Shown here: piece by piece, positions 21,094-42,240 of the stretch
Numbering within the stretch: position 1 is the stretch's first letter
How the letters are laid out: each line of letters starts with the position of its first letter
Assembly (NCBI RefSeq): GCF_022808855.1
Contig: NZ_JAKZLF010000001.1
Coordinates: forward strand, 308,597 to 372,596
From: Anaeromyxobacter soli
Lineage (GTDB): Bacteria > Myxococcota > Myxococcia > Myxococcales > Anaeromyxobacteraceae
Length of the DNA stretch: 64,000 bases
Direction: 5' to 3'
The notes under the pieces: generated by a model
What the model saw: only the letters and a program-made list of their open reading frames with translations
Databases searched by the model: none
Told to the model about the DNA's origin: nothing
Translations under genes and position numbers: made by a program

Positions 21094-21645
21094 CTACGCC
21101 GCGACCGTCGCCCCGGCCGTCTTCCGCACCGCCTCGAGCTCGATCGCGATCTCCACCTTCTCGCCCACGAGCACGCCGCCGGTCTCGAGCGCCGCGTTCC
21201 AGACGAGCCCGTAGTCTCGCCGGTCGAGCGACGCCTTCGCCGAGAAGCCCGCGCGCTCGTTGCCCCACGGGTCCTTGCCGGTGCCCGCGAACTCGGCCTC
21301 GAGCGTCACCTCGCGCACGACGCCGTGGAGCGAGAGGTCGCCCACGATCCGGAGCGCGCCGCCCACCTGCTCGACGCGCCTCGAGCGGAAGCTGATCTCC
21401 GGGTGCGCCGCGACGTCGAGGAAGTCCGGCGAGCGGAGGTGCGCGTCGCGGTCGGCGACGCCGGTGTCGATCGAGGCGGGGTCGATCGTGACCTCGACCG
21501 AGGAGCGGGCGAGGTCCTGCGGGTCGAGCTGCACGGTGCCCGTCCAGCGGCCGAACCGGCCGTGCACCTTGGAGATGACCATGTGGCGCACGGAGAAGTG
21601 CACCGCGGAGTGTCCGACGTCGATGTCCCAGGGGGTGGCTGCCAT
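21094..21645 (-). CDS. yceI: YceI family protein (cytoplasmic type)
   Basis: This 183-residue YceI-domain protein folds as a lipocalin-like barrel that in the family binds isoprenoid or other amphiphilic chains. It begins MAATPWDIDVGHSAVHFSVRHM, the classical YceI start, and has the usual HPEISFRS and KVHGRFGRWTG blocks. No signal peptide is present, unlike the second YceI protein in the window (40226-40900). It is divergent from a LysR-type regulator across 118 bases, the standard layout for a regulator and its target. A role in solvent or acid stress, or in binding a quinone-like lipid, is inference. Confidence 0.93.
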   Translation of the reverse strand: MAATPWDIDVGHSAVHFSVRHMVISKVHGRFGRWTGTVQLDPQDLARSSVEVTIDPASIDTGVADRDAHLRSPDFLDVAAHPEISFRSRRVEQVGGALRIVGDLSLHGVVREVTLEAEFAGTGKDPWGNERAGFSAKASLDRRDYGLVWNAALETGGVLVGEKVEIAIELEAVRKTAGATVAA

Positions 21646-40225: not shown

Positions 40226-40900
40226 CTACGGCTCTCTTGCCGCGGCGCCCGGGCGCGGCTTCGCGGACGCCCCCCGGGGACCGGCGCGGTGCAACGTGAG
40301 GGCGATCTCGACGACGAGCTCGTCCTTGACGCCGACGGTCCCGCCGAACCCGCTGAACGGCTTGATCCCGAACGCCGTCTGCTTCACGTGCGCGTTCCCG
40401 CGGACGCTCCAGGCGTCCGCGCCCCGCTCCGCCTCGAAGTCGACGTCGGCGGGCGCGCTCCGGCCGCGGAGCGCGAGCGTGCCGTGCAGCGTTCCGCGGA
40501 GGTGCGCCCCGTCGGTCGAGCCGCGCTCGAGCTCGAGGCGCTGCGATCGGAACTCGATCCGCGGGTGATGCTCGGCGTCGAGGACGTCCGGCCCGCTCGC
40601 CTGCGCGTCCACCTTCCGGCGGTCGCCCTCGGACAGGCGCGGCTGCCGGTCGTGCAGCGAGCCGGCCGAGAGGATGACCTCGACCGAGGTGGACGCCGGG
40701 TCTCCGTCGGGGATGACCGCGCTCGCGCGCCACTCCGTGACCTCGAACGCGTGGTCGTGGGCGAAGCCGGAGAAGAGGCCCTTCTTCTGGACGTGCACGA
40801 CGATGCGGCCGCTCGGCGGGAGCGCTTCCCACTCCCCCGCCGACGCCGCCGGAGCGACCGCCGCGAGACCGACCGCGAGCGCGAGCGAGAGGAACCTCAC
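40226..40900 (-). CDS. yceI: YceI family protein, periplasmic
   Basis: This 224-residue protein has a Sec signal (MRFLSLALAVGLAAVAPAASA) and a YceI lipocalin-like domain, so it acts in the periplasm. The family binds isoprenoid chains; in E. coli yceI lies next to yceJ, a cytochrome b561 homologue. The domain shows HDHAFEVTEWRASAVI, FRSQRLELER and VKQTAFGIKPFSGFGGTVGVKDEL. The C-terminal tail is Pro/Arg-rich. The GTG start has GAGGAG upstream. It is divergent from a b561-like gene across 161 bases, which strengthens the comparison with the E. coli pair. Confidence 0.9.
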   Translation of the reverse strand: MRFLSLALAVGLAAVAPAASAGEWEALPPSGRIVVHVQKKGLFSGFAHDHAFEVTEWRASAVIPDGDPASTSVEVILSAGSLHDRQPRLSEGDRRKVDAQASGPDVLDAEHHPRIEFRSQRLELERGSTDGAHLRGTLHGTLALRGRSAPADVDFEAERGADAWSVRGNAHVKQTAFGIKPFSGFGGTVGVKDELVVEIALTLHRAGPRGASAKPRPGAAAREP

Positions 40901-40925
40901 GGGCAGCTCCTCGTCACGGGAGGAT

Positions 40926-40938
40926 CCCTTTCAAAGGG
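40926..40938. promoter_or_regulatory. 13-base dyad in the yceI/b561-like divergent promoter region
   Basis: CCCTT and AAGGG flank TCA in a local A/T-richer pocket 26 bases upstream of the periplasmic yceI start. It may be a regulator site for the divergent pair. Confidence 0.3.
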
Positions 40939-41061
40939 TGAGCGCGCGGGCGCACGATCCTTCGACGGGCCGGCGACGGGGCCGCTCCGGGCGAGACCTC
41001 GCGACCGGGACCGAACGTGGATACACAGCATGCCGGCAGGTGACGCGGCGAGGAGGACGAC

Positions 41062-41781
41062 ATGTTCCACGCGCTGGTGATGTCGGTGGTCTGCGCGACG
41101 GCGGGGAGCCTCTCCACGGCCCCCGCTCCCGCTCGGACGGTGCAGGCGGCGCTCCACCTCGAGCTCCTCGCGCCCGCCGGGGTGACCGCGAGCGCACCCG
41201 GCGACCTCGCGCTCCACCGTCCCGGGCTCGGCGAAGGCGAGCGAGCGCACCAGGATGCCGGCGAGCTCGCGCCGCCGGACGACGCCCGCGTGAGGAGCCT
41301 TCGCCGCTGGGAGCGCGCCCTCAAGTGGAGCACCGCCGGCGCGCTCCTCGCGACGAGCACCCTCGGGACGCTGGCCGCAATCAACCAGCCCACGGCGTTC
41401 GGGGACGGGCGCTGCCAGACCGGCCACCCCGTCCTCGGCACGTACGGCTGCGATCGCGGGCTGTCGACCCTCCACGGCACGAGCGGCGTCCTCTCCGCGA
41501 CGCTCTACACCGCGAACGGCGTGCTCGCGCTCTCGCTCCCCGGCCCGGTGGGCCACGTCAGGCCGGCGGCCCGGCCCTGGCATCGCGCGCTCACCTACGT
41601 CCACCTCGGCGGGATCACCCTGCAGCCGATCCTCGGCCTCGTCTCGGCGTTTCCCCAGGTGATCGGGGTGCGCAACACCGCGCCCGGCGATCGGTTCCCC
41701 AAGAACACGCGCACCATCCACGTCGGCCTGGGCTACCTCACGGCCGCCGCCTACCTCGCGACGCTCGCGCTCGAGCAGTGA
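41062..41781 (+). CDS. cytochrome b561-like membrane protein
   Basis: This 239-residue protein has a signal-like N-terminus and four transmembrane helices between residues 90 and 239 (roughly WSTAGALLATSTLGTLAA, LHGTSGVLSATLYTANGV, YVHLGGITLQPILGLVSAF and IHVGLGYLTAAAY). Histidines at the starts of helices 2, 3 and 4 fit bis-His b-type haem ligation as in cytochrome b561. Cys residues in a periplasmic loop (CQTGHPVLGTYGCD) may form a disulfide. It lies between the periplasmic yceI gene (divergent) and the cupredoxin gene (convergent), so it may pass electrons between quinol and a periplasmic carrier. The haem role is inference. Confidence 0.65.
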   Translation: MFHALVMSVVCATAGSLSTAPAPARTVQAALHLELLAPAGVTASAPGDLALHRPGLGEGERAHQDAGELAPPDDARVRSLRRWERALKWSTAGALLATSTLGTLAAINQPTAFGDGRCQTGHPVLGTYGCDRGLSTLHGTSGVLSATLYTANGVLALSLPGPVGHVRPAARPWHRALTYVHLGGITLQPILGLVSAFPQVIGVRNTAPGDRFPKNTRTIHVGLGYLTAAAYLATLALEQ

Positions 41782-41793
41782 CCGGCGGGCCAC

Positions 41794-42240
41794 TCAGTAG
41801 CCTCCGCCGCCGCTGCCGCCCGGCGGCGCGGCGGGCTGCGCGGCCGCGTCGACGGTGATCGTGCCGTTCGGCGGCTTCATGGTCGCCGCGTGGACCGTGC
41901 AGTAGAAGGGGATCTTCGTCCCGTCGGGCGCGCTCGCGGGGATCGTGAAGGTCTTCTGGCCGTCGAAGGTGCCGGTGTCGAACGACACCCCCGCGACGGC
42001 GCCGGGAGTGAAGGCGTTCGCGGTCGCCTCGCTCGTCACCGAGTGCGGGACCGCGTCCTTGTTGAGGACCGTCACCGTCCCGCCGGGCGGCACGGACAGG
42101 CTCGCCAGGGAGAAGGTCATGTTGGAGATGGTGATGTAGAAGCCGGGCGTGGAGGGCGTGCTCGACGAGCTCGATCCTCCGCAGCCGGCCAGGACGCCCA
42201 TCGCCACGGCGACGAGCCCGGCCCTCGTTCCAGCCTGCAT
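41794..42240 (-). CDS. cupredoxin-domain lipoprotein
   Basis: This 148-residue protein has a lipoprotein signal with LAGC near residue 20 and a Ser-rich linker, then a plastocyanin/azurin-like fold. The type 1 copper ligands are visible as His in AVPHSVTSEA and the Cys-His-Met group in FYCTVHAATM. The signature GGTVTVLNKDAVPHS is typical of bacterial cupredoxins. It probably carries electrons at the outer face of the cytoplasmic membrane or on the outer membrane. It converges with the b561-like gene by only 12 bases, so these two stop codons are nearly back to back. Confidence 0.9.
   Translation of the reverse strand: MQAGTRAGLVAVAMGVLAGCGGSSSSSTPSTPGFYITISNMTFSLASLSVPPGGTVTVLNKDAVPHSVTSEATANAFTPGAVAGVSFDTGTFDGQKTFTIPASAPDGTKIPFYCTVHAATMKPPNGTITVDAAAQPAAPPGGSGGGGY

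Follow-up and report, generated by a model that had tools for sequence, protein, structure and literature searches.

A Glu-variant b561-like protein flanked by YceI and cupredoxin genes in Anaeromyxobacter soli, a candidate derivative of an envelope redox module of Myxococcota

The 64,000-nucleotide stretch of the Anaeromyxobacter soli genome analyzed here (the window) carries, side by side, genes for a YceI-family protein, a b561-like membrane protein and a type 1 cupredoxin lipoprotein (Table 1). From its gene content, linkage and residue patterns we lean, by a modest degree, towards considering this cluster a derived form of an envelope redox module of Myxococcota. The standard module would have three parts: a four-helix b561-type protein that probably binds two haems, a YceI lipocalin and, in the periplasm, a carrier of single electrons, most often a double Rieske protein and in other cases a CxxCH protein or a cupredoxin. 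The lineage of the window lacks the usual YceI, and its membrane protein is flanked by a different YceI and a cupredoxin.

Table 1 Features of the cluster and its adjoining gene in the window.
Feature	Coordinates	Strand	Evidence
NDH-2-like NAD(P)/FAD oxidoreductase, 452 aa	38753..40111	-	PF07992 178 bits; PF22366 24.2 bits (cut-off 27.7)
Periplasmic lipocalin-like protein of the YceI family, 224 aa, GTG start codon	40226..40900	-	PF04264 54.7 bits
Divergent intergenic region, 161 bases, YceI / b561-like	40901..41061	.	Alignment with A. terrae L051
Four-TM b561-like membrane protein, 239 aa, Glu84 variant	41062..41781	+	PF03188 17.9 bits (below cut-off); His pattern
Type 1 cupredoxin lipoprotein, 148 aa	41794..42240	-	PF00127 23.4 bits; four Cu ligands

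The three genes were found as the initial annotation had described them, with matching open reading frames and strands and with orthologous frames kept intact in A. terrae (identities of 83% for the b561-like protein, 78% for YceI and 81% for the cupredoxin); the nearest named relatives of the window genome are A. terrae SG22 and A. oryzisoli SG63. The YceI and b561-like genes are divergent, and the b561-like and cupredoxin genes are convergent with the 12-base gap noted previously. The assignments of the two flanking proteins also stood, the YceI protein scoring well above the PF04264 cut-off (23.7 bits) and the copper lipoprotein passing that of PF00127 (21.2 bits), with a full ligand set and a lipoprotein-type start. 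Alignment of the YceI/b561-like intergenic region with that of A. terrae L051 revealed conserved blocks by both start codons, suggesting that it probably holds two back-to-back promoters. The NDH-2-like gene lies 114 bases downstream of the YceI gene on the same strand, is 95% identical in A. terrae L051, where the gene order is the same, and is possibly a quinone-linked neighbour of YceI. Close homologues were found neither in viral contigs nor in plasmids, both of which were searched. No NCBIfam family was assigned to the YceI or b561-like proteins and the cupredoxin matched only far below the cut-offs, while PADLOC had no match for the three cluster genes; its 17.6-bit match to the NDH-2-like neighbour was weak and was treated as chance. 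A second, canonical YceI gene (21094-21645, minus strand; PF04264 173 bits), with no obvious signal peptide, is present elsewhere in the window and has no b561-like gene close by.

The lipoprotein-type start of the cupredoxin is at Cys20 and its ligands are His66, Cys114, His117 and Met121, which are occupied by the same residues in 33, 33, 31 and 22, respectively, of 33 members of its family. The protein matched plastocyanin in sequence (1fa4, E 7e-6) and, in a Foldseek search with a predicted model of mean pLDDT 65.7, in fold (2gim, E 2.7e-6). Members of this family are present in 44 of the 195 Myxococcota genomes, mostly remote from b561-like genes, and a second copy was detected in the window genome (C1:296591-297022). 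A single cupredoxin lineage travelling with the b561-like gene was considered but not supported, as the cupredoxins found beside such genes had no common group in a poorly resolved tree; their scatter in this weakly supported tree would fit repeated recruitment.

Searching with the sequence of the membrane protein alone identified it in 3 of 60 genomes, counting that of the window, and a 4-row profile identified it in 5 of 195 Myxococcota genomes. With a distant member (L010) added and the threshold lowered, weak matches appeared that lay beside genes for YceI, Rieske, CxxCH and cupredoxin proteins, and a 15-row profile (E ≤ 0.01) had relatives in 94 of the 195 genomes, or 79 of the 149 with completeness of 90% or more and contamination of 5% or less. 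From 96 loci passed through our own GC-frame gene-calling script, which gives approximate starts in relatives, three (L167, L202 and L215) yielded no called b561-like gene; the resulting 93 members form 36 clusters at 65% identity, most loci coming from related genomes and not being independent. Eight weak or short profile matches (G034:C126, G193, G117, G030, G154:C287, G049, G062 and G170) were left out of the loci. Beyond Myxococcota, one degenerate-pattern scan of genome contigs for the close family returned three loci, all with myxobacterial titles.

In its usual form (H-type) this family has a His at the start of each helix, and among the 93 members the four His columns (H1 to H4) hold His in 88 (four Glu, one gap), 92 (one gap), 93 and 92 (one gap), respectively. 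A hydrophobic N-terminal stretch resembling a signal start is present in 78 of the 93. In eukaryotic b561 proteins (PMC10691727), His 1 and 3 hold the non-cytoplasmic haem and His 2 and 4 the cytoplasmic haem, in a site shaped by Gln at H3+14, Gly at H3+18 and Gly at H4+4. The 87 H-type members carry these residues in 74, 86 and 87 cases, respectively; the three positions were examined after that paper, and two of them sit in an earlier set of seven small-residue positions which, used as a b561-fold test, showed no excess as a set (P 0.42). At the outer-haem positions the H-type proteins depart from the eukaryotic features, having Met at H3+4 in 80, Leu at H4+18 in 75 and Leu at H1+20 in 74. 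No Pfam b561 cut-off was reached by the window protein or by the relatives scanned: for PF03188 (cut-off 23 bits) the best relative scored 20.9, PF01292 gave no match to the window protein at E ≤ 10, and the weak single matches among 36 representatives at E ≤ 0.01 numbered seven for PF03188 and six for PF01292. The best sequence match in the PDB was a plant b561 (E 0.61). On its anatomy we regard the family as b561-type, short of proven membership. An acidic, D-x-D-L-L-like short motif, a possible docking site, was seen upstream of TM1 in 76 of the 93 members.

Using a YceI profile built without the window sequence (E < 1e-5), we found a YceI gene within three genes of 80 of the 93 members, as a direct neighbour on the same strand in 74, nearby on the same strand in five and on the opposite strand in one (L051). 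A one-electron carrier was encoded near 77 of the 93, namely a Rieske protein (56), Rieske and CxxCH proteins (3), a CxxCH protein (14), a cupredoxin (3) or a cupredoxin and a CxxCH protein (1), with none in 16, and the common order on one strand was b561-like, YceI and double Rieske. Rieske and CxxCH assignments in relatives are motif matches save for the proteins scanned with Pfam, which recognized three of three YceI proteins, three of three Rieske proteins and, as Copper-bind, the cupredoxins of L094 and L055; one of two CxxCH lipoproteins matched Paired_CXXCH_1 and the other had no match. Applied to 342 kb of control sequence, from 35 loci that surround other cupredoxin genes, this YceI profile and the Rieske motif had no match, and no b561-like gene was present either. 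The proposal that the b561-like protein belongs with YceI and a one-electron periplasmic carrier was thus borne out by operon-like clusters in many Myxococcota. Within the phylum the b561-like gene recurs with YceI and a carrier; the full three-gene set is conserved only in A. terrae. That three envelope genes came to lie together by chance of place, sharing no function, is scarcely credible in view of this family-wide linkage and its absence from the controls, even if their mixed orientations imply at least two transcription units and A. terrae alone retains all three together. The link between the b561-like and YceI genes is better supported than first thought, but the window copy is atypical. 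A b561-type protein and YceI linked to interchangeable Rieske, CxxCH or copper carriers across a large bacterial group suggest that the little-understood YceI lipocalins belong to a real electron-transfer chain.

Linkage at the window gene itself is represented by one close relative and two separate cupredoxin cases. L094 has a tandem of cupredoxin, b561-like, YceI and CxxCH-pair lipoprotein genes, in which the cupredoxin gene lies 10 bases upstream of the b561-like gene and the other junctions are a 9-base gap and a 4-base overlap. A metagenome-derived Myxococcaceae genome (L006/L055) has a cupredoxin gene on the same strand as the b561-like gene, 22 bases upstream of it. In A. oryzisoli (L052) the b561-like gene sits between histidine-kinase-like and transporter-like genes with no YceI or cupredoxin gene beside it, and neither was seen at L054, whose contig begins 463 bases upstream.

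Other arrangements were noted around these genes. In four further Anaeromyxobacter loci (L163, L172, L174 and L176) an opposite-strand pair of ECF-type sigma and anti-sigma-like genes lies between the b561-like and YceI genes; the L172 sigma factor matched Pfam Sigma70_r2, and a further ECF-like gene lies after the L054 member. Such sigma factors, found at 10 of 95 b561-like loci and 6 of 35 controls, were not specific and were rejected as a regular part of the module. Another recurrent YceI neighbourhood was found in distant genomes (L045, 5383-7550; L061, 1545-3882), where YceI accompanies a cupredoxin-fold-like protein lacking Cys-x-x-His and a repeat protein of about 370 residues. At L046 (5184-6856) the gene beside YceI encodes a possible further partner, a lipoprotein-like secreted protein that carries internal repeats.

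The YceI protein of the cluster scored only 17.5 bits with a profile of the operon YceI proteins and is of a divergent subfamily, not that of the operons. For none of the members from the window, A. oryzisoli, L055 and L054 was an operon-type YceI found nearby. By profile search, operon YceI was present in all six Anaeromyxobacter genomes with an H-type b561-like protein (in one, G008, which is 66% complete, the match was more distant) and in none of the three with the Glu-bearing type described below, and each of the nine genomes had a single b561-like match. These patterns suggest that in this genus the Glu-bearing protein replaces the standard module and is not added to it.

The Glu-type proteins, those of the window, A. 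terrae, A. oryzisoli and L055, form a single clade (support 99/92) that stands beside L054 (99/98) and is separated by a long branch from the 87 others. In all four the first His is replaced by Glu (Glu84 in the window protein) and the Gly at H1+4 by Lys (Lys88); Asp at H3-5 is Ala, H3-2 is Pro, and three of the four have His at H3+7. The b561-like histidines reported initially were confirmed in part: H138, H174 and H220 are conserved, but the TM1 position is Glu84, with which the protein departs from the eukaryotic pattern of one His per core helix, and H181, the second His of TM3, was rejected as a haem ligand, being Ala in 89 and Asn in one of the 93 members. All four proteins retain the cytoplasmic-haem signature (Q188, G192 and G224 in the window protein), and their outer-haem positions H3+4, H4+18 and H1+20 are Thr, Glu and Leu/Val, again departing from the eukaryotic features. 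An AlphaFold2 model of the window protein, made from four sequences, had a mean pLDDT of 33 and was discarded. Two Cys residues in the TM1-TM2 loop (Cys118 and Cys130 in the window protein) occur in only 5 of the 93 members, the Glu-type four and L054.

From these residues we infer that Glu-type proteins most likely have an intact cytoplasmic-side haem site (H138/H220) and an outer site that was rebuilt around Glu84 and Lys88 or lost. The signal-like start suggests an outside N-terminus, and with this topology the altered site would face the periplasm, where the cupredoxin would be. The window protein may function with a single haem, with a haem held by Glu and His or with a different metal. 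A more radical departure, in which the Glu-type membrane protein binds one haem or none and has taken on another task, such as redox sensing or quinone binding, and its neighbours are not functional partners, would agree with Glu84/Lys88 in all four, with the long branch and with the missing operon-type YceI at these loci and at L054; we regard it as unlikely, given that all four retain three His and the complete signature of the cytoplasmic side and that a cupredoxin neighbour recurs at L055 in another orientation. Very improbable, in our estimation, is that the outer site became a periplasmic-face metal site, possibly for copper, formed by Glu84, His174, His181 (in Anaeromyxobacter) and Lys88, with the protein reducing or loading copper for the cupredoxin instead of passing electrons from haem to a Rieske protein; if true, copper in place of haem in a b561-type protein would make a new kind of membrane redox protein.

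In the favoured reading as a derived redox module, the b561-like protein would draw on the membrane quinone pool or on the cytoplasmic side for electrons and pass these to a YceI-bound isoprenoid or quinone, to the carrier, or to both. The module would serve to quench damaging envelope radicals, a role proposed for LcoA-BcnA, or to supply an acceptor in the periplasm. The route from quinol to a periplasmic copper protein put forward initially gains from the recurrence of same-strand cupredoxin genes at L006/L055 and L094, but the loss of the outer-site His and the gain of Lys in the whole clade could break the path to the periplasm, which leaves a simple wire from quinol to copper plausible for the family and doubtful for the window protein. 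Its fuller version, a transmembrane conduit for respiration or extracellular electron transfer in which quinol is oxidised, electrons cross the b561-like protein to the cupredoxin and YceI carries quinone, is given little weight by us: b561-like and cupredoxin genes adjoin in three separate settings (window/A. terrae, L055 and L094), other family members are paired with Rieske or CxxCH carriers and a possibly quinone-linked NDH-2-like gene lies beside the window YceI, yet the outer site is altered in the very clade where three of four members have cupredoxin neighbours, the two genes are convergent in the window, and A. oryzisoli has the membrane protein with neither neighbour. Read as a derived module, the clade amounts to a natural experiment, with the first haem ligand replaced, the usual YceI absent and a carrier that is mostly a copper protein.

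Among known proteins, the window cupredoxin is like the type 1 cupredoxins plastocyanin, amicyanin and pseudoazurin in sequence, in its four ligands and in predicted fold, and differs from them as a lipoprotein of a Myxococcota family. With eukaryotic b561 proteins of the CYBDOM type (PMC10691727), the b561-like family shares four core helices each with a His, the cytoplasmic-haem signature, an outer redox partner and, as expected from its signal-like start, an extracytoplasmic N-terminus. It differs in scoring below the Pfam cut-off, in lacking the outer-haem Gly and the Arg/Lys at H1+20 and in having its partner as a separate protein, and the window protein further differs in having Glu as H1.

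The adjacency of yceI and yceJ in E. coli, invoked in the initial annotation, was verified (one strand, 3 bases apart), whereas the use of YceJ as a homologue of the b561-like protein did not hold. YceJ belongs to PF01292 (105 bits), and an hhalign comparison of 36 family members with YceJ and four PF01292 proteins of the window genome gave a probability of 0.4%, so that YceJ is, on this profile comparison, better described as an analogue of the Myxococcota family. In the literature collection searched, no paper joined YceI, Rieske and b561. The closest known system is LcoA-BcnA/YceJ-YceI, which likewise has a b561-type gene beside a YceI lipocalin gene. In Burkholderia cenocepacia, the b561 protein LcoA and the YceI lipocalin BcnA protect against lipid peroxidation, as supported by mutants, LcoA being proposed to re-reduce a quinone in BcnA, and Escherichia is among the genera with the two-gene operon (PMC9113575); the text of that paper makes no mention of Myxococc* or Rieske. 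In Shewanella, PMC8981235 places YceJ-YceI in an electron chain from co-expression and earlier cited work. In contrast to the LcoA-BcnA operon, the window pair is adjacent but divergent, and the 74 of 93 relatives with same-strand direct neighbours belong to a different b561 family, with one His per helix and operons that add a Rieske, CxxCH or cupredoxin gene. By analogy, the Myxococcota module would fit an LcoA-BcnA-like role to which a dedicated carrier has been added.
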